Assembly: GCA_024178355.1 (NCBI GenBank)
Contig: JAMZNZ010000006.1
Location: forward strand, 124,001 to 188,000
From: Maricaulaceae bacterium EIL42A08
GTDB taxonomy: Bacteria; Pseudomonadota; Alphaproteobacteria; Caulobacterales; Maricaulaceae
Direction: 5' to 3'
Length of the DNA: 64,000 nt
Shown: in pieces, positions 47,422 through 60,626 of the stretch
Position numbering within the stretch: position 1 is the first letter of the stretch
How the letters are laid out: the number at the start of each line of letters is the position of its first letter
Notes under the pieces: model-generated
The model's input: only the letters and a program-made list of their open reading frames with translations
What the model was told of the DNA's origin: nothing
Databases searched by the model: none
Translations under genes and position numbers: made by a program

Positions 47422-49407
47422 TTAGCCAGCCCAGCCGGACCGGCACACCACAAAGCTGAGCGCTGGCACCTCCACCGCATAGCTGCCCGGTGCAGATGCG
47501 GTCGGCGAGCACGTGCCCGAGCGGCTGGTCCAGGCCAGCGAGCGGCCGTCCACCACGACATTGGCGCTGCGGCTGACCTCATTGGCGTTGAACGCCACCA
47601 CGACCTCGGTGCCGCTTTCCTCATCAATGCGAGAAATCACGAACAGTCCGCCATGGGTGGAGACCGCCTCGCTTTCGTCCTCGGCAACATCAGCTGAGTT
47701 GGCAAACATGCCTTGTGACCCTGCGTCCTGAGGGCTGTCAAAATGGCGGACCAGCTGGCTGCCCCGACGAAGGGCGCGCTCTGAGGTGCGGATCCGGGCC
47801 ATCTCGGCAATCGCCTGGTAGAGCGGGTGAGACGGATCAAAGTTATTGTCAGCAGGCGTCGCATCGGTACCGATCTGGTCGTTGTCGATATAGATTGGGG
47901 TCACAGACGGGAACATGGTCTCGCGCGCGCCCTGGTCGTTGTAGTCCGACACAAAGCCCTGCTCATCGCCGTAATAGATTGTTGGCACGCCGCGCGTGAA
48001 CATCATCAGGGCGTGAGCAAGCTCCATGCGGGCCAGGGCTTCAGCGTCCAACATGTCCGGGTCGGCCTGGCGTAAAAACATGGAAAAGCGGCCCATGTCG
48101 TGATTGCCCAGGAAGGTCGGATTGATCCGCGCGGTTTCAAATCCGTCGGCATAGGCTGGATCAAACTCGTAAAGCCGCGACAGGACCGAGGTGGGCTGAC
48201 CGCCCGCGATCACCGCCTGCGCCGCGCCCTGAAAGGCAAAGTCGAGCGTTGATGGCAGGTGGCTTTCGACCGTGTGCGCGCCAAGGCGACCTGGATCAAA
48301 CTCATAGATCTCGCCGAACACATGGAAATGATCGATCCCCAGGCTGGCGGCGTGATCGACCATGGCCGGATTGAACTCAGCCCAGAATTCAGGGCGCACA
48401 TGCTTGACCGTATCGATACGGAAGCCATCCACGTTGAAATCGCTGATCCACTGCCGGTAGACATCGATCATGCCATTGACCACGGTCGGGTGCTCGGTGT
48501 TGAGGTCATCCAGGCCCGCAAAGTCGCCATAAAGCGCACTTTCACCGAACCAGAAGCTTTCACCGCGATTGTGGTAGAGCGTCAAATCGTTGAGCCAGGC
48601 GGGATTGCGAACGTTCTCGTCTTCTGGATCGATAGCTACTGTGTAGGCCCAGTTGGGGTTGGTCAGGTTGGCGTAGTTTTCCGCGGTGAGATTATGCGGA
48701 TCGTCGCCCAGGAAGCCCTCATTGATCGTTTCGCCATCGGGCCCGCCGATCGTGGTCCAGGGGTAGTCGGCTTTTGAGCGGTAGGGGCAGCCGCCCTGAG
48801 GGTCGATAAAGCCTTCAAACTCCGGATCATGGCATTCGCGCATATAGGCAACGTCGGCGGTATGGTTTGTGATGATGTCCATATAGACGCGCAGACCGCG
48901 GGCCTGGGCGGCATCTACAAATTCGGCAAAAGCTTCGCGTCCGCCCAGATGCTGGTCCACGCCCAGAAAATCGGTGATCCAGTAGCCGTGATATCCCGCG
49001 CTTTCCTGACCCGGCCCGCCCTGAACTGCACGGTTCTGGAAGATTGGGGTCAGCCAGATCGCGGTGACACCCAGGCCCTCTATATAATCAAGGCGCTGGG
49101 TCAGGCCCTGGAGGTCGCCGCCCTGGTAGAAGCCCTGGTGGGTGGGATCAAAGCCATGGTCGAGCCGCCCGCCTTCGATGCCGCCGGTATCGTTGGATGG
49201 GTCACCGTTCTCAAACCGGTCCGGCATGACGAAGTAGATAATCTCGTCTTCCGGGCGGCGGTCGGGTTGCGAGGCAAGCCGTTCAGCATTGGTCGGTCCG
49301 GTCATGCCCGGCGCGTCGCCTGATGGCAGGGCACAGGCTGGAGCGGCCAGAAGACTGGCCCCGGCAACGCCGCATAGCAGGGCTTGCGCCAATTTGCGCT
49401 CTATCAT
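47422..49407 (-). CDS. Secreted GH13 alpha-amylase
   Basis: 661 residues with a signal peptide (residues 1-26). Catalytic TIM-barrel motifs: DIITNHT near residue 175, DGFRIDTVKH with the nucleophile Asp near 328, FGEIYEF with the acid Glu near 363 and FLGNHDMGR with the transition-state Asp near 432. Two Cys pairs (ECHDP...GGCPY; GTCSP...FVVC) may be disulphides. A C-terminal all-beta domain closes the protein. Hydrolyses alpha-1,4-glucans outside the cell or in the periplasm. Divergent from the GH97 gene across a shared control region. Confidence 0.95.
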   Translation of the reverse strand: MIERKLAQALLCGVAGASLLAAPACALPSGDAPGMTGPTNAERLASQPDRRPEDEIIYFVMPDRFENGDPSNDTGGIEGGRLDHGFDPTHQGFYQGGDLQGLTQRLDYIEGLGVTAIWLTPIFQNRAVQGGPGQESAGYHGYWITDFLGVDQHLGGREAFAEFVDAAQARGLRVYMDIITNHTADVAYMRECHDPEFEGFIDPQGGCPYRSKADYPWTTIGGPDGETINEGFLGDDPHNLTAENYANLTNPNWAYTVAIDPEDENVRNPAWLNDLTLYHNRGESFWFGESALYGDFAGLDDLNTEHPTVVNGMIDVYRQWISDFNVDGFRIDTVKHVRPEFWAEFNPAMVDHAASLGIDHFHVFGEIYEFDPGRLGAHTVESHLPSTLDFAFQGAAQAVIAGGQPTSVLSRLYEFDPAYADGFETARINPTFLGNHDMGRFSMFLRQADPDMLDAEALARMELAHALMMFTRGVPTIYYGDEQGFVSDYNDQGARETMFPSVTPIYIDNDQIGTDATPADNNFDPSHPLYQAIAEMARIRTSERALRRGSQLVRHFDSPQDAGSQGMFANSADVAEDESEAVSTHGGLFVISRIDEESGTEVVVAFNANEVSRSANVVVDGRSLAWTSRSGTCSPTASAPGSYAVEVPALSFVVCRSGWAG

Positions 49408-49578
49408 GGTGAACCTCCCGAGGCTTTATTTGCGGGTCAGTCTACCGATTGGTGCGGCGAAGTCACGCAAAAGCGGACAAGTTATTGCGTAAATTTGCAA
49501 CATGTGTGCACCCTGTCGGTCAATGAGAGGCGGTAGCGCACCTTGCACAGCCGCAACAAAAACAACGGGAGACATGGC
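49408..49578. promoter_or_regulatory. Divergent control region of the starch cluster
   Basis: 171 bases between the amylase and GH97 starts. The half-sites TTGC (49485) and GCAA (49497) flank eight bases and form an imperfect 16-base palindrome (TTGCGTAAATTTGCAA), a possible operator for a LacI-type regulator of maltodextrin genes. No regulator gene is in the window. Confidence 0.35.
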
Positions 49579-51765
49579 ATGGCCACTCAGCTTGGCGGGC
49601 CCATCATATCAACAGCTCAGCTCAAAAATCTGCTATTTGCAGGTTTTTGCGTCAGCTTGCTAGCCGCATGCGGCTCACCTCAGTCCTCGGAGAATTCTGA
49701 TGCCGGTACTCCCCGGGCTGCAAGGGGCGAGGTAAGCGGTCCACTGGCAAACGCAGCGCCTGAGCCGCTGGATGTGGGGCCCGTCATCACCGATCCGGTA
49801 AGCGTCGCTTCGCCGGATGGGCGGACCGTCGTGCGGGTCTGGAGCGAGGCGGGTGAGCCCCACTACACGGTGGAGCGCGATGGCGTGTCGGTGCTGGCAA
49901 ATTCCCAGATGGGGTTTCGCTTTGCTGAAGGGCCGAACCTGGAAGCAGGTCTGGTCCTGACCGACGCGCTGACAAACTCCCATGATGAAAGCTGGGAGCA
50001 GCCGTGGGGCGAGCGCCGGATCGTGCGCGATCACCATAATGAGCTGGCGGCCACCTTCACCTCGACCGAGTTCGAGGGCGGTCAATTCACCGTGCGCTTC
50101 CGGGTCTTTGATGCCGGCATTGGTTTCCGCTTCGAGGTCGAGCGCGGTGCGGATGGAGAGGCGCCGGTGGAGATCACCGACGAGTTGACCGAGTTCCATC
50201 TGGCCAGCACTGGCGAAGCCTGGTGGACCCCCGCTCACGAGTTCAATCGCTATGAATATATTTATTCAAATGGGGCAGTGGAAGACGCGGCCAACGCACA
50301 CACGCCGTTCACTGTGCGTCTGGAAGGCGGGCAATATCTGGCGATCCACGAGGCGGCGCTGGTGGACTACTCGGCCATGTCGCTGGACCAGCGGCGCGAC
50401 CGGGTGTTTGAGGCAGAGCTGCGCAGCTGGAGCGATGGCGGCAAGGTGCGTACCACCGCTCACTTCACCACACCGTGGCGTACGATCCAAATTGCTGATG
50501 ATGCGCCCGGCCTGATCAATGGCACCGACATCACGCTAAATCTGAATGAGCCGAACGTACTGGGCGATGTCAGCTGGCTGGAGCCCGGCAATTATGTCGG
50601 CATCTGGTGGGGCATGCACCTGAATGAATATACGTGGGGGTCGGGCCCGAACCACGGTGCCACCACCGAGCGGACCCGCGATTATATCGACTTTGCCGCC
50701 GAAAATGGCTTTGTCGGTGTGCTGGTCGAGGGCTGGAATATCGGCTGGGACGGCGACTGGTTCAATAATGGTGAGATCATCGATTTTACAACGCCCTACC
50801 CCGATTTCGATCTGGAAGGCCTGTCTGCCTATGCCGAAGAACGCGGTGTCCGCCTGATCGGCCACCACGAGACGTCGGCGGCCATCACCAACTATGAAAA
50901 CCAGATGGAAGACGCCTTCGCGCTCTATGAGCGCATGGGGATCCGCGCAGTGAAAACCGGCTATGTGGACGATGCTGGTGAGGTCTTGCGCCGGGATGAA
51001 GCCGGCCATGCCCGCTATGAGTGGCACGACAGCCAATTTATGGTCGGCCATCATGCCCGGGTTGCCGAGGTCGCAGCGCGTCATCGTGTGGCGATCAATG
51101 CCCACGAGCCGATCAAGGATACGGGCCTGCGCCGGACCTACCCCAATCTGATGACGCGAGAAGGTGTGCGCGGGCAGGAATTTAACGCCTGGGGCGATCC
51201 GCCCAACGGCCCCTCCCACACGCCGACGATTGCTTATACGCGCATGCTGGCCGGCCCCGCCGACTTCACGCCGGGCATCTTTGATCTGACCTTTGAGCGT
51301 AGTGATGGACGCCGCGGCGTGCAGACCACACTTTCCAAGCAGCTGGCGCTTTATGTGGTGCTCTACAGCCCGCTTCAGATGGCGGCTGACCTGATCGAAA
51401 ATTACGACGACCATCCGGAAATGTTCCAGTTTATCCGGGATGTTCCGGCCGACTGGGAAGAGTCCATCGCGCTCCAGGGCGAGGTCGGTGAGTATGTGGT
51501 TCAGGTGCGTCAGGACCGGGCCAGCGCCGACTGGTATCTGGGGGCGATCACCGATGAAACCCCGCGGGGCCTGTCGGTTCCGCTCGACTTCCTGGAAGAC
51601 GGTATCACATACACCGCCCAGATCTATCGCGACCGGGCTGATGCCCACTGGCTGACCAACCCTTACGCCTATGTGGTGGAGGAGCGTGAGGTCACTTCGG
51701 CGGACGTTATGGAGCTGCCGCTGGCGGCCAGCGGGGGTGCCGCAATCCGCTTTGTAGCCCCATGA
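49579..51765 (+). CDS. GH97 alpha-glucosidase lipoprotein
   Basis: 728 residues from ATG 49579 with a GGGAGA site; the frame is open to 49543 but lacks a signal there. Lipobox LLAAC near residue 31. Family blocks: RFAEGPNLEAGL, WEQPWGERRIVRDHHNEL, FRFEVERG, YVGIWWGMH, and the catalytic region GYVDDAGE, INAHEPIKDTGLRRTYPN and REGVRGQEFNAW. Glu in HEP and Glu in GQEF match the two Glu of inverting GH97 enzymes such as SusB (E508, E532), pointing to an inverting alpha-glucosidase. Overlaps the downstream esterase by four bases (ATGA). Confidence 0.93.
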   Translation: MATQLGGPIISTAQLKNLLFAGFCVSLLAACGSPQSSENSDAGTPRAARGEVSGPLANAAPEPLDVGPVITDPVSVASPDGRTVVRVWSEAGEPHYTVERDGVSVLANSQMGFRFAEGPNLEAGLVLTDALTNSHDESWEQPWGERRIVRDHHNELAATFTSTEFEGGQFTVRFRVFDAGIGFRFEVERGADGEAPVEITDELTEFHLASTGEAWWTPAHEFNRYEYIYSNGAVEDAANAHTPFTVRLEGGQYLAIHEAALVDYSAMSLDQRRDRVFEAELRSWSDGGKVRTTAHFTTPWRTIQIADDAPGLINGTDITLNLNEPNVLGDVSWLEPGNYVGIWWGMHLNEYTWGSGPNHGATTERTRDYIDFAAENGFVGVLVEGWNIGWDGDWFNNGEIIDFTTPYPDFDLEGLSAYAEERGVRLIGHHETSAAITNYENQMEDAFALYERMGIRAVKTGYVDDAGEVLRRDEAGHARYEWHDSQFMVGHHARVAEVAARHRVAINAHEPIKDTGLRRTYPNLMTREGVRGQEFNAWGDPPNGPSHTPTIAYTRMLAGPADFTPGIFDLTFERSDGRRGVQTTLSKQLALYVVLYSPLQMAADLIENYDDHPEMFQFIRDVPADWEESIALQGEVGEYVVQVRQDRASADWYLGAITDETPRGLSVPLDFLEDGITYTAQIYRDRADAHWLTNPYAYVVEEREVTSADVMELPLAASGGAAIRFVAP

Positions 51766-53024
51766 GGGGTCTGGCGAGCGCCCTGATTGCAGCGGCGCTT
51801 GCCGCCTGCGGGCCGGAAGCCGAGCGGGTCGCTGTGCCGCCGGTTGAGGCGGAGGACGGGCTGGTTGCGGTGACTATCAACGCAACGGTGCCCGACGACG
51901 CAGGCGAGATTTATCTGGCTGCAAACATTGATGCTTTGGGCCTCTGGCGCGCCGATGGTCAGCTGATGACCGGCGAGGGGCGGTACCGCACCACGACGCT
52001 GGCGCTGCGGGACGGGTTTGCGCTGGAGTTCAAGCTCACCGGCGGCAGCTGGGACACCGAAGGTACCGGTCCATCCGGCACCGTTTTGCCAAACTTCTCC
52101 CACACGGTGGAGGCGGGTGGCGACAATGTCGTTGAAGTCGAGATTGTTGATTTCAAGTGGCCAGCTGACGCCTATATCGCCGATGTTGAAGGCTCTGGCG
52201 TGCTGGGCGCGCTGATCTACTGGACTGATGTTGAAAGCCAATTCTTCGACGTCACCCGTCATGTTTCGGTCTGGCTGCCGCCGGGCTATGACGCGGACCC
52301 AGAGCGCAATTACCCGGTCATCTACATGCATGACGGGCAGAATCTGTTCGACCCCCGCATCGCCAATACCGGCACCGACTGGGGCGTCGATGAAGCGATG
52401 ATGCGCAATGTGGAGGCGGGTCTGCACGATCCGGCCATCGTGGTTGGCATCTGGAGCACGAATATTCGCGGCTTCGAGCTGTCGCCCTGGCATGGCGGGC
52501 CGCGCTATGCGGCCATGATCATTGAAGAAATCATGCCGCGTGTGAATGCTCAGTTTCGCACCCTCACTGGTTCAGAGCACACTTTCACCATGGGCTCGTC
52601 CATGGGTGGCCTGATCAGCCAGTATCTGGTGCGCTCTCACTCAGAGGTGTTCAATGCGTGTGGCTGTGTGTCGACCCACGTGCCCTTTAGCCCGGCTCAG
52701 GCGGAGGAATTCCTGGGTCTTGATCCGGGCGATTATGCCGATCCGGAGCGGCCCTATCTGTTAGTCGCTGCGGACCAGGATACCCCGATCCCTGACCAGA
52801 TTCGGCTGTACTTTGACTATGGCGATATTACGCTCGATGAGACCTACCCGCCCATCCATGACGCTCTGCGTCCGTGGCTGGAATCTCAGGGCCTGGTCGA
52901 GGGCGAGCGCTACGCCATGCGCCGCTTCGAAGGCGCCCCCCACAACGAGGCCGCCTGGCGCGAACGGGTGCATCTCCAGCTCGCGTGGCTGCTCGGCGGG
53001 CATGACCCGAACGGGCTGGAGTGA
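51762..53024 (+). CDS. CBM20-like plus esterase-D-type alpha/beta hydrolase lipoprotein
   Basis: 420 residues. Lipobox LAAC (Cys16). Residues 35-135 look like a starch-binding (CBM20-like) beta sandwich: VAVTINATVP, GEIYLAANIDALGLW, ALEFKLTGGSWDTEG. Residues 150-415 are an esterase of the IroE/enterochelin-esterase-like class: VSVWLPPGYD, VIYMHDGQNLFD, nucleophile in TMGSSMGG, and His in GAPHNEAAW. It is translationally coupled to GH97, so probably acts on the same glucan, perhaps removing acyl groups (inference). Confidence 0.87.
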   Translation: MRGLASALIAAALAACGPEAERVAVPPVEAEDGLVAVTINATVPDDAGEIYLAANIDALGLWRADGQLMTGEGRYRTTTLALRDGFALEFKLTGGSWDTEGTGPSGTVLPNFSHTVEAGGDNVVEVEIVDFKWPADAYIADVEGSGVLGALIYWTDVESQFFDVTRHVSVWLPPGYDADPERNYPVIYMHDGQNLFDPRIANTGTDWGVDEAMMRNVEAGLHDPAIVVGIWSTNIRGFELSPWHGGPRYAAMIIEEIMPRVNAQFRTLTGSEHTFTMGSSMGGLISQYLVRSHSEVFNACGCVSTHVPFSPAQAEEFLGLDPGDYADPERPYLLVAADQDTPIPDQIRLYFDYGDITLDETYPPIHDALRPWLESQGLVEGERYAMRRFEGAPHNEAAWRERVHLQLAWLLGGHDPNGLE

Positions 53025-56505: not shown

Positions 56506-57546
<1,041 letters not shown>

Positions 57547-57614
57547 CTAACCCTGATACACAGTGTGCGCAATGAAACCGCTGTAGCACCTTGACCGGTT
57601 ATCCCTAAGGTTGC

Positions 57615-57626
57615 AGATTTAAATCT
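57615..57626. promoter_or_regulatory. Palindrome upstream of the dehydrogenase-like gene
   Basis: AGATTTAAATCT, a perfect 12-base palindrome ending 17 bases before the ATG. Next to it CTCAGAAAATGAG is a weak hairpin. Possibly an operator or ribosome-site occluder. Confidence 0.3.
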
Positions 57627-57643
57627 CAGAAAATGAGGTTCTC

Positions 57644-59410
57644 ATGGCCAACGCTACATCAAGACATCCAGACGTTTCCGCTGAAACAGTTGCAATGGTT
57701 AACGAGATCCCTGAACGCGTCATTCCCTTGATGGAGGGTGAGGGGGCTGACCGCATATTCCTGCTGACAACAAAGCGACGGGGTGATCAGGCCTACGCGG
57801 CCACATCCGTACATGGCCCGATGATGCGCGCCTCTGGCGGCGCAGCGCTTGTTCAGGCGCGTAAGGAAATGAACGTGAACGACATCTGCCTGTGCCTCCA
57901 GCGGGTCACGCGCGACCGCGTCCAGCAGGCCACCAGGGGCTTCAGGAATCGCTTTCAGGTCATGGCAGAGTTGAATTCTGCGCTTGATTATTTTGGGGAG
58001 TTCTACGTCGCTTACTGCGTGATCCACGCCAATTATGGCCCGAGCAAGGATATGACAATTTTTGTCGGGGGTGATTGCCATCGCGACTTCCAGTCCCTCG
58101 GCAGCATATTGGGCCGGGTGAAGAACCTCTCCGTTGCAATGTTGCGCAAGGCGGTAACGGTCTTTCCTGAAATCGGGACGCTCCACGGTGGAAAGAAGGG
58201 CGAGTGGGCGGTCGTCACCCGCGAAGGGCGCCCGGTTATCGGGCTGTCGGATGAAGCCACCGTCGCGCTTGGGTCGCTCATAATTGCTGAGGGAATGCGC
58301 TTTCTCAATCGCTTGCGGCTTGAGCACGCGGTTGTGGACGGCGTGCTTGGCGCTATTAGCGATTTCGAAGACCGCAACTACGCACGGTCCGATACAGCGT
58401 CACCCGACATGCTGTCTGGCAAATACTGGAAGCCGCTGATTGATGCGTGGCATGCGCGCGGTCATCCTCTGGAAATGGTGACCTGCCTTCCATCGGACCA
58501 TCCACACCACGGTCCCAAAGAAGAATCCAATGGACCAACAGCGCGAGGTGCTGTCATTACCCTGATTGAATTGATTGAGCGACGTTGGGGTAAGGGTGTT
58601 GACCGCAAGCATGTGCATATCCTGATCGAGGGCCTTGGCGGGGTCAGTGGTGTCGCGCTCGATCTGCTGGAAAAGTCCGGTTTCAACATGGCAAATATCT
58701 ACGGCTTTGATGTGAAGCCGGAGACAGTTGCAAGTGTTCAAAGTCGCTATCCCGAAGCGCGCTTTACAACAATGAGCGGTAACGACTTCTATGAGGCTTC
58801 AAACCTCTCCGAGCTTGCAAATGCCGCTAAAGGCAAACCGCTCGTCTGGTTCAACAACGGACCGGGAGACAAGGCGAAACCTGGCCATGTAGAGGCTCTG
58901 CTTGACGCGGGCGTCGAGATTTTTTCCGGGGCTGCAAACAATCTCCTTCAGGTCGCAACACAGGATGCATCGCTTGAGGCCATCTATAAGGCGGGTGCGT
59001 GGTACTGGCCGGATGAGGTCACGAGTGGTGGAGGATGGACCCTGGCCGTTGTGGATGTCGTAAACCGCAGCCGAGGCCAGACCAGCGACAACGACGAGAC
59101 GTCTAGTCTGATCAATGAGGTGATTGCCACGGCAAACCTCAACATCATCGACGAGACATTCGAGCGTGTTGGCTCCAAACCTGATGCCGATGGCCGCTAT
59201 GTTGTCGATAGCGCTGAGCTTCATTCACAGGTCAAGCAACTGATTGATGCGCGGGTTCAGACAGCTCACGATATGGAAGACGACGAGCTGGATGGTAAAG
59301 TCATCGCCGCCAATGCGGACACGGGGCGTTGGAATCTCGTGTCCAGTCCCCGCCCCGCGATCAAGGACCAGGTCAAAAAAGCGCTCGCGCAGTTCTCCGG
59401 CCAGAGCTAG
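57644..59410 (+). CDS. Divergent Glu/Leu/Phe/Val dehydrogenase-like protein of unknown function
   Basis: 588 residues, no signal or membrane segment. The C-terminal half reads as an amino-acid dehydrogenase NAD domain: SNGPTARGAVITLIELIE, then GLGGVSGVALDLLEKSGFNMANIYGFD (dinucleotide fold), then FSGAANNLL and GAWYWPDEVTSGGGWTLAV, which correspond to the AGAANNQL and YAPDYVVNAGG motifs of leucine/phenylalanine dehydrogenases. The first 230 residues do not show the GGGK catalytic lysine motif or the EDVG aspartate of that family, so catalysis is uncertain. About 200 residues longer than LeuDH. Flanked by divergent mdh and convergent zapE; no operon. Confidence 0.8.
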   Translation: MANATSRHPDVSAETVAMVNEIPERVIPLMEGEGADRIFLLTTKRRGDQAYAATSVHGPMMRASGGAALVQARKEMNVNDICLCLQRVTRDRVQQATRGFRNRFQVMAELNSALDYFGEFYVAYCVIHANYGPSKDMTIFVGGDCHRDFQSLGSILGRVKNLSVAMLRKAVTVFPEIGTLHGGKKGEWAVVTREGRPVIGLSDEATVALGSLIIAEGMRFLNRLRLEHAVVDGVLGAISDFEDRNYARSDTASPDMLSGKYWKPLIDAWHARGHPLEMVTCLPSDHPHHGPKEESNGPTARGAVITLIELIERRWGKGVDRKHVHILIEGLGGVSGVALDLLEKSGFNMANIYGFDVKPETVASVQSRYPEARFTTMSGNDFYEASNLSELANAAKGKPLVWFNNGPGDKAKPGHVEALLDAGVEIFSGAANNLLQVATQDASLEAIYKAGAWYWPDEVTSGGGWTLAVVDVVNRSRGQTSDNDETSSLINEVIATANLNIIDETFERVGSKPDADGRYVVDSAELHSQVKQLIDARVQTAHDMEDDELDGKVIAANADTGRWNLVSSPRPAIKDQVKKALAQFSGQS

Positions 59411-60534
59411 AGCGGGCGATCGGCGCTAGACATCTGGGCGGGCGAGGACGCAATCGCATCTTTGCGCTCGGCCGCGAGATAATCATGGCTGCGCATTTCC
59501 ATCAGACGACTGGCGGTGCGCTGGAATTCAAAGGCGTAGTCGCCGTCGGTGTAGAGGCTGTCGGGCTCCGCCGCGGCGCTCATCACCAGCTTGGTCTTCA
59601 CCTCGTATAGCGCATCAATCAAGGTGCCGAAGCGCTTGGCCTGATCGCGCTTGTCGGGGGTGAGCAGCGGCGTGTGATCGATCAGGATCGTGTGGAAGCG
59701 TTCAGCCAGCGCCAAGTAATCGGCTGGCCCCAGCGGGCGAGCGCACAACTCCTCAAACTCGAAGCGGGCCACACCAGCGGCCTCACGGGTCACGTCCAGC
59801 ACCCGCCCTTTTACCGTGATGGATGTCGTGCGAGCCTTGGCCCCCATGGTCAGGCGTTCAAAGGCGGCGTTCATGGCCGCATCGGCGTCCGCGCCCAGCG
59901 GGGTGTAGTAGACCGGACCTGCTTCCAGCCGCTCCAACCGGTAATCGCGCCCGCTATCAAGCTCATATAGCGACATGCGCGCCTTGATCATATCAATGAA
60001 GGGCTCAAAAAGCTGCCGGTTGAGGCCGTTCTTGTAGAGCTCGTCCGGGTGGCGATTGGATGTGGCGACCATCACAACCCCCTCGGCGAACAGGCCTTCA
60101 AACAGGCGGCCGAGGATCATCGCATCGCCTACATCGGTGACCTGAAGCTCGTCAAAGCATAGCAGGCGGGCCTCCCTCGCGATGGCCTGTGCCACCCGCG
60201 GCAGCGGATCACGATCCTTCTTTGCGCGCTCCTCGGTGATGCGGGTCTGCACTTCCTGAAGGAATTGATGGAAGTGGACCCGGCGCTTGTGCTCCACCGG
60301 CGCGGTCTCAAAAAAGAGATCCATCATCAGCGACTTTCCGGTGCCCACCCCGCCATAGAGATAGACCCCCACTGGCGACCGCTCACGGCGACCGAACAGG
60401 CCGCGCTTGCCGCCCTTCCATTGCTCCAGATTCTTCCAAAGATGGGTGAGCAGGTCAGCAGCCCGCGCCTGAGCGGCATCGGGCTGGAGCCGACCTTCAT
60501 CAATGCCACCCTGCAGCGCCTCGTTCGGCGTCAT
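59407..60534 (-). CDS. zapE: Cell-division ATPase ZapE (AFG1-like)
   Basis: 375 residues from ATG 60532-60534; a GTG four codons further out is possible. AAA-like P-loop GGVGTGKSLMMDLFF, Walker B RLLCFDELQVTD, sensor VMVATSNRHP. ZapE/AFG1 proteins associate with the Z-ring and with membrane protein turnover (established in E. coli and yeast). The stop overlaps the dehydrogenase-like gene stop by four bases. Confidence 0.94.
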   Translation of the reverse strand: MTPNEALQGGIDEGRLQPDAAQARAADLLTHLWKNLEQWKGGKRGLFGRRERSPVGVYLYGGVGTGKSLMMDLFFETAPVEHKRRVHFHQFLQEVQTRITEERAKKDRDPLPRVAQAIAREARLLCFDELQVTDVGDAMILGRLFEGLFAEGVVMVATSNRHPDELYKNGLNRQLFEPFIDMIKARMSLYELDSGRDYRLERLEAGPVYYTPLGADADAAMNAAFERLTMGAKARTTSITVKGRVLDVTREAAGVARFEFEELCARPLGPADYLALAERFHTILIDHTPLLTPDKRDQAKRFGTLIDALYEVKTKLVMSAAAEPDSLYTDGDYAFEFQRTASRLMEMRSHDYLAAERKDAIASSPAQMSSADRPL

Positions 60535-60626
60535 CAAAGCCCCCACACCAACACCGCTGCGCCCAGAAGCCCGAAGGCGAGCACAGCAGCAATAATCAGG
60601 GACACAGGGCGTTCAATCCGTCGCAT
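60534..60626 (-). CDS. 30-residue single-pass membrane peptide upstream of zapE
   Basis: MRRIERPVSLIIAAVLAFG... : two Arg-rich residues then one continuous hydrophobic helix, ending LVWGL. Its TGA overlaps the zapE ATG (TGATG), so it is coupled. No strong ribosome site. Small membrane proteins are common next to division genes; there is no known name for this one. Coding status is inference. Confidence 0.5.
   Translation of the reverse strand: MRRIERPVSLIIAAVLAFGLLGAAVLVWGL

Follow-up and report, generated by a model that had tools for sequence, protein, structure and literature searches.

Amino-acid dehydrogenases are central to nitrogen metabolism and to the synthesis of chiral amines. The roles of their active-site residues are set out for leucine dehydrogenase (LeuDH) in PMC8766677: K68 recognizes the substrate carboxylate, K80 and D115 are catalytic, N262 contacts the carboxyl group, and M65, V291 and V294 line the pocket. 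The same paper describes amine dehydrogenases that were engineered from LeuDH through changes at K68 and N261. Here we describe a divergent protein of the Glu/Leu/Phe/Val dehydrogenase (ELFV) fold, predicted to be NAD+-dependent, from the window, that is, the whole 64,000-nucleotide stretch of Maricaulaceae bacterium EIL42A08 that was analysed. The protein most likely represents a new subfamily of this fold, rare and very divergent, for which no named relative was found. On the basis of sequence comparison and structure prediction, we consider it to be probably a working, catalytically competent NAD+-dependent L-alpha-amino-acid dehydrogenase, with a probability of about 70%.

The protein is encoded by an open reading frame (ORF) that begins with ATG.

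57644..59410, + strand: dehydrogenase gene, 588 amino acids, recognized by its ORF, predicted fold and seven homologues
57635..57638, + strand: GAGG in the sequence, a probable ribosome-binding site 5 nt 5' of the ATG

An earlier note on this DNA had read the ORF in the same way. The ORF has a codon score of 0.112 per codon; the other two forward frames of the interval give -0.382 and -0.453, and the three on the reverse strand give 0.015, -0.275 and -0.484. Coding is therefore supported, yet codon use is atypical, since eight other ORFs of the window all score higher (0.195-0.413); GC3 is 0.633 in the 588-residue ORF versus 0.678-0.806 in those eight. The note had also described the protein as far longer than Leu/Phe dehydrogenases, which is borne out by the 364 residues of LeuDH 1leh, and the motifs that it quoted are present at residues 330-336, 428-435 and 453-464.

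Taken alone, the window protein appears to be nearly an orphan at the level of sequence. A profile search against Pfam, which the note had proposed, was answered in part: PF00208 matches residues 416-505 (E 2.3e-4, 21.4 bits) below its cut-off of 23.4, one unrelated family matches at E 0.3, and PF02812, the N-terminal ELFV domain, is unlisted at E <= 10. The dehydrogenase marks that the note called clear are thus real motifs, though the word was slightly strong for a protein that falls below the PF00208 cut-off when searched alone. No NCBIfam model is listed for it at E <= 10, and the best phmmer match in the PDB has E 0.17. When its own genome was searched with PF00208 (E <= 0.001), three other places were listed and not this gene; the control for this search was positive in 14 of 14 known genomes. 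The picture is similar for the eight-member family described below. PF00208 matches seven members at E <= 1 (best 7.5e-8), while neither PF02812 nor the large NAD-glutamate dehydrogenase family PF05088 is among the 11 Pfam families listed for them at that threshold; NCBIfam, also at E <= 1, returns three irrelevant models (best E 0.076). The family profile matches mostly glutamate dehydrogenases (GDHs) in the PDB, the better ones at E 0.001-0.07 with 8owm best at 0.001. Failure at the PF00208 cut-off is a matter of detection threshold, not of chemistry, and standard family models can miss deeply divergent branches. A full-text literature search, judged by titles and the starts of abstracts and with most subscription journals outside its coverage, found no paper on such a family. 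The statement in the note that no characterized protein of this build was known agrees with these searches, in which no relevant NCBIfam, close PDB or described-family match was found.

The apparent orphan was turned into an eight-member family by a degenerate DNA pattern for [GA]-N-N-x21-W-P-D-x5-G-G, in which two motifs stand a fixed distance apart. In genome_contigs, this pattern matched 13 stretches, of which seven are relatives by tblastn and six are not; because the spacing must be exact, members with other spacing are missed. The relatives come from an uncultured bacterium (L044), an Acidobacteriota MAG (L045, cut at the contig start), a Deltaproteobacteria MAG (L049), bacterium Bpl_4 (L051), Candidatus Uabimicrobium amorphum (L052), a Planctomycetota MAG (L054, complete in L085) and a Chloroflexi MAG (L055). 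Their genomes are of Planctomycetota, Acidobacteriota type and Chloroflexi. They share 35-41% identity with the window protein over 446-584 columns (tblastn E 5e-82 to 8e-110 in a small database), and pairwise identity among the eight homologues is 36-74%. The Chloroflexi copy carries a lone in-frame TAG (L055:4069-4071, - strand) in an otherwise conserved frame, either a sequencing error or recent decay; only the part downstream of this stop was used in the alignment.

Given such E values, a search with the window protein alone would reveal family members. At E <= 0.001, this search found the gene in its own genome only, both among 41 genomes (its own and 40 relatives) and among 385 genomes of the class including its own, and gave no match in the 136 others of 137 genomes of the family. 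Across 398 genomes of the phylum, there were two further weak partial matches (E 1.3e-4 and 5.4e-4); these, L005 and L006, were excluded from the members. The four genome sets overlap. In the phyla of the relatives, the family profile found a true member in 2 of 246 genomes for the phylum of G889 and, at E <= 1e-30, where weaker matches are invisible, in 1/169 (phylum of G885), 1/199 (G886), 1/199 (G887) and 3/199 (G888). Every member genome was already known from the motif pattern. We infer that G885, G886 and G887 belong to one phylum (Acidobacteriota type) and G888 and G889 to another (Planctomycetota), because the same drawn genomes are listed within each set; the name Deltaproteobacteria on the L049 record does not fit this inference. 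The Planctomycetota sample also gave 19 partial matches (E 3e-10 to 1e-3) that cover only profile positions 231-444 and were not counted as members; 16 of them sit in open frames of 355-460 residues.

Viral and plasmid sequences were searched in several ways. Back-translated 8-mers, which demand exact short peptides, matched 14 stretches of genome_contigs and two of viral_contigs when taken from the single protein, seven of viral_contigs when taken from its C-terminal fragment, and 50 of viral_contigs when taken from the family alignment; none is a relative. Nor is any of the nine matches of the motif pattern in viral_contigs, as judged by tblastn. The window protein had no tblastn match in plasmids or phages, and L049 likewise none in plasmids. 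The best PHROGs match has E 0.3, and the one BFVD match below E 0.001 is a Pandoravirus glutamate dehydrogenase. None of these searches, within its own sensitivity, pointed to a home in viruses or plasmids. The subfamily is rare and patchily distributed.

For comparison with ordinary members of the fold, 22 ELFV ORFs were extracted, of which seven or nine were used in hhalign and eight in a tree; L005, L066-L072, L078-L080 (wrong strand), near copies and the degenerate L074 were left out. In this midpoint-rooted tree, a single group of the eight family members is supported at 100/100, and the stem leading to it measures 6.13 changes per column. Within the group, the window protein splits off first, and the other seven cluster together (83/77).

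An alignment of all eight (A1) shows where the active site lies. Invariant in A1 are, among others, M166, K169, F174, P175, L180-H-G-G-K-K-G-E-W188, D250, S253-P-D255, W262, C281 and P283, and in the C-terminal part T299, G302, F355-D356, W402, N404-N405-G406, A431-N432-N433, W455-P-D457, G463-G-W-T466 and A468-V469. The sites that follow are named after LeuDH, with its residue roles as given in the paper cited above.

58067..58072, + strand: G142-G143, equivalent of LeuDH G41-G42 by alignment
58139..58150, + strand: M166-L-R-K169, matching M65 and the carboxylate-recognizing K68 of LeuDH, with M166 and K169 invariant in 8/8
58187..58207, + strand: G182-G-K-K-G-E-W188, the GGxK catalytic-lysine motif, invariant in 8/8
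58391..58408, + strand: D250-T-A-S-P-D255, candidate equivalents of LeuDH D115, both Asp invariant
58538..58549, + strand: T299-A-R-G302, a T-[AG]-x-G motif where the nucleotide domain begins, with T299 and G302 invariant
58631..58651, + strand: G330-LGGVS-G336, dinucleotide-binding glycine loop, from alignment and model
58709..58711, + strand: D356, invariant acid at a strand end of the nucleotide domain, from alignment and model
58937..58942, + strand: N432-N433, matching the Asn pair N261-N262 of LeuDH and invariant
59006..59038, + strand: W455-P-D-E-V-T-S-G-G-G-W465, the PDxxxxxGG motif, from alignment and LeuDH sites

Whole-profile hhalign of A1 against ELFV proteins of the same genome and of Planctomycetota gave probabilities of 98-99%, with a single aligned column in one of the four runs. 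The N-terminal slice alone gave 6-72%, so that the register there leans on the common fold and on conservation. Ten runs (four whole-profile and six of the nine with the N-terminal slice) were checked residue by residue, and seven of these cover the lysine region. In all seven, LeuDH M65 falls on M166 and K68 on K169. K80 falls on K185 in five and on K184 in two, and D115 on D255 in three and on G233 in two, being unaligned in the remaining two. The Asn pair falls on N432-N433 in all three whole-profile runs that align. A seeded MAFFT alignment gives K169, K184 and D250. LeuDH numbers can be read from the LeuDH-like protein of the same genome, L002, because it aligns without gaps to 1leh and 3vpx from the N-terminus past D115. 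A hand alignment that put the catalytic lysine on GPSK (132-135), with the E of PEIGT in the place of D115, was ruled out; K135 is not conserved, and the family alignment shows AMLRKAV and GGKKGEW as the conserved motifs.

The earlier note had argued from the absence of GGGK and EDVG that the catalytic lysines were missing. The literal strings are indeed absent, but GGKKGEW aligns to GGGK80 of L002 and K169 to K68, and the lysines are thus present at shifted positions (K169, K184/K185), an outcome that the note itself had named as one that would refute its reading. The window protein departs from the other members at 29 of the 133 columns that are invariant in them, including V141, S249 and Y454 near the motifs; the departures spare K169, K184, K185, D250, D255, N432 and N433. 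One of them, G to A300, changes PTGYG to PTARG, near the TARG of ordinary ELFV proteins. Among the readings that the note had offered is a pseudoenzyme or NAD(P)-sensing regulator, in which the fold is kept and the chemistry lost. This now seems unlikely: the very long stem branch, a reshaped pocket (W465, A468), the lack of a PF02812 match and an accessory gene that stands alone would all suit it, but a dead enzyme would not need lysine sites, an Asn pair and two candidate Asp residues that are invariant across eight homologues. The kept lysines point instead to a probably working enzyme. A contrast is provided by L074 (genome G942), a 354-residue LeuDH-like ORF that by eye has really lost these sites, with Ser in place of K68 (TYSAA), K80 (GGGS) and D115 (SGESG); from its sequence, it would be a better pseudoenzyme candidate than the 588-residue protein.

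Structure prediction likewise indicates a two-domain ELFV fold. With A1 as input, AlphaFold2 gave a best model of the window protein with pLDDT 81.6 and pTM 0.84 (five models from 81.6 to 60.9), in which confidence is low at the Asp candidates (65 in block 241-250, 51 in 251-260) and in residues 131-150 (68 and 60). Led by L049, the best model reached pLDDT 85.4 and pTM 0.84 (five models, 83.6-85.4). Foldseek against the PDB ranked phenylalanine dehydrogenase (PheDH) 1c1d_B first at E 1e-9, followed by other Phe, Trp, Leu and Glu dehydrogenases. By VIA-align, the window model superposes on PheDH 1bxg_A over 342 of 349 residues (Z 24.6, rmsd 3.1), and the best match of the L049 model covers 349 of 349 (Z 27.7, rmsd 3.3). 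Phe/Leu/Trp dehydrogenases score above GDHs with both models, at Z 21.7-24.6 versus 17.9-19.7 for the window protein and 24.4-27.7 versus 19.4-21.0 for L049. The structural comparison suggested in the note found the fold, in predicted models; the lysine equivalents, which the note had expected to be missing, come from the sequence alignments above.

The points at which these structural alignments start, on the two models, suggest an N-terminal extension of likely about 66 residues in the window protein and about 50 in L049.

57644..57841, + strand: residues 1-66, a likely extra N-terminal stretch as compared with LeuDH, from model alignment starts

On the window model, seven of eight LeuDH entries start at 67-69, LeuDH 8gxd at 14 and PheDH entries at 7-15; on the L049 model, all Phe/Leu/Trp dehydrogenase rows start at 50-53.

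As substrate, a neutral or hydrophobic amino acid seems more likely than glutamate. In the ungapped register of the PDxxxxxGG motif, LeuDH V291 becomes W465 and V294 becomes A468, both invariant in the family. In GDH, the residues that bind the glutamate side chain are K89 and S380, the latter at the position of LeuDH V294. The note's other suggestion, an enzyme acting on a different substrate, may hold, given W465 and the lack of evident counterparts of these GDH residues. A GDH variant, with the same chemistry on glutamate and 2-oxoglutarate, would account for the PDB profile matches and for the PTGYG of most relatives, which resembles TGYG in the GDH-like L001 of the same genome. It is nonetheless improbable. 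The position of the glutamate-binding lysine, LeuDH position 40, falls on K135 in three of the seven hhalign runs, but on V141 in three others and in MAFFT (it is unaligned in one); the V141 position is Ile in the six A1 relatives that cover it and Val in the upstream fragment of L055, and K135 is not conserved in the relatives. S380 (present in L001) is replaced by A468, fold scores favor Phe/Leu/Trp dehydrogenases in both models, and the genome already encodes L001. Glutamate is disfavored on the grounds of A468, the fold scores and L001, with K135 leaving a small opening. A further reading, that the same machinery acts on something other than an alpha-amino acid, such as an opine-, amine- or imine-type substrate, would be in keeping with the rare, patchy distribution and with a pocket reshaped by an enlarged domain I and W465. 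We regard it as very doubtful given that the equivalents of K68, N261 and N262, which hold the alpha-carboxylate, are kept; it was K68 and N261 that were changed in making amine dehydrogenases from LeuDH (PMC8766677).

As an L-alpha-amino-acid dehydrogenase, the protein may work as follows. K169 and N432/N433 would hold the substrate carboxylate, a Lys of G-G-K-K would polarize the 2-oxo or imino group, and an invariant Asp, D250 or D255, would shuttle protons. Hydride would pass to NAD+ bound by the C-terminal Rossmann domain, and the products would be a 2-oxo acid, ammonium and NADH, unless the reaction runs in the opposite direction; D356 suggests NAD+ rather than NADP+. The N-terminal extension and enlarged domain I would probably remodel subunit contacts or the pocket.

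The genomic setting is variable. The gene, on the + strand, is flanked by mdh and zapE on the opposite strand (NCBIfam MalateDH_bact, ZapE), and its stop overlaps that of zapE (59407-60546, - strand) by 4 bp. zapE was found in 15 of 15 genomes of the genus, including this one, and the flanks were compared in 13 of 14 congeners. In 7 of these 13, mdh and zapE are no more than about 6 kb apart, and the gaps between them (146-3371 bp) contain other cargo; where the window has its gap (57475-59406), congeners carry an O-methyltransferase (L022), a peroxidase (L025), small unnamed ORFs or nothing. No match to the 588-residue gene better than E 4.7 was present in the 13 congener flanks. Because the cargo varies and congeners have no match, the gene is an accessory insertion at a variable spot. 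Elsewhere in the window (47425-53021), an alpha-amylase-family enzyme is clustered with a GH97 glycosidase and an esterase.

Neighbors differ among the relatives, as seen in a scan of ten immediate-neighbor proteins that left out a 924-residue ORF downstream of the L051 gene. In L089 (genome of L055), an M20-type peptidase follows the family gene at a distance of 77 bp. In two of the seven relatives, leuS is the next gene downstream on the same strand, after 67 bp in L086 (genome of L044; 982-3438, TIGR00396 960 bits) and after 57 bp in L087 (genome of L045; 1510-4140, 1100 bits). The L044 and L045 family proteins share 53% identity, and we infer that both genomes belong to one phylum; the linkage is a weak hint. 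A separate open frame of at least 1135 residues (L081:880-3435, L090:4370-7774; genome G956, drawn in the phylum of G889) has an ordinary ELFV dehydrogenase part (PF02812, PF00208; ScyB model 219 bits, below the cut-off of 600) joined to a valyl-tRNA-synthetase-like region (217 bits, below the cut-off of 704) whose HIGH motif reads QIGS by eye. It runs off the contig and is possibly an assembly chimera. The two leuS neighbors and this fused frame are what suggest a connection with aminoacyl-tRNA synthesis. That the enzyme oxidizes leucine, or norvaline or another non-cognate amino acid resembling leucine, beside leucyl-tRNA synthetase is a conjecture with little probability; if true, a dehydrogenase linked to this synthetase would tune leucine supply or clear substrates of mischarging.

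A divergent branch that keeps its lysine sites while domain I and the pocket are rebuilt would be a new scaffold, perhaps one that accepts a new range of substrates. Among known systems, PheDH (1bxg, 1c1d, 1bw9, 1c1x) is the best structural match to the window protein in both domains, but identity over the structural alignment is 19-20%, the window protein is about 240 residues longer, and pocket residues are changed. LeuDH (1leh, 3vpx, 6acf) and tryptophan dehydrogenase (5b37) share the fold at Z 21.7-23.2, and K68, K80, M65, the Asn pair and the PDxxxxxGG motif of LeuDH all have equivalents; the differences from LeuDH are the likely N-terminal extension, about four extra residues between the lysine sites, and the change of V291 to W. 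From the named families of Leu, Phe, Val and Trp dehydrogenases, the subfamily is set apart by having no relevant NCBIfam match. GDHs (8owm, 7f77, 1v9l and others) match the family profile and have the same fold, whereas their structural scores are lower than those of Phe/Leu dehydrogenases and their glutamate side-chain residues are not evident in the window protein. L002 (353 residues) and L001 (441 residues) of the same genome, which served as alignment partners, belong to the same fold superfamily, but both fall outside the 100/100 group formed by the new family.
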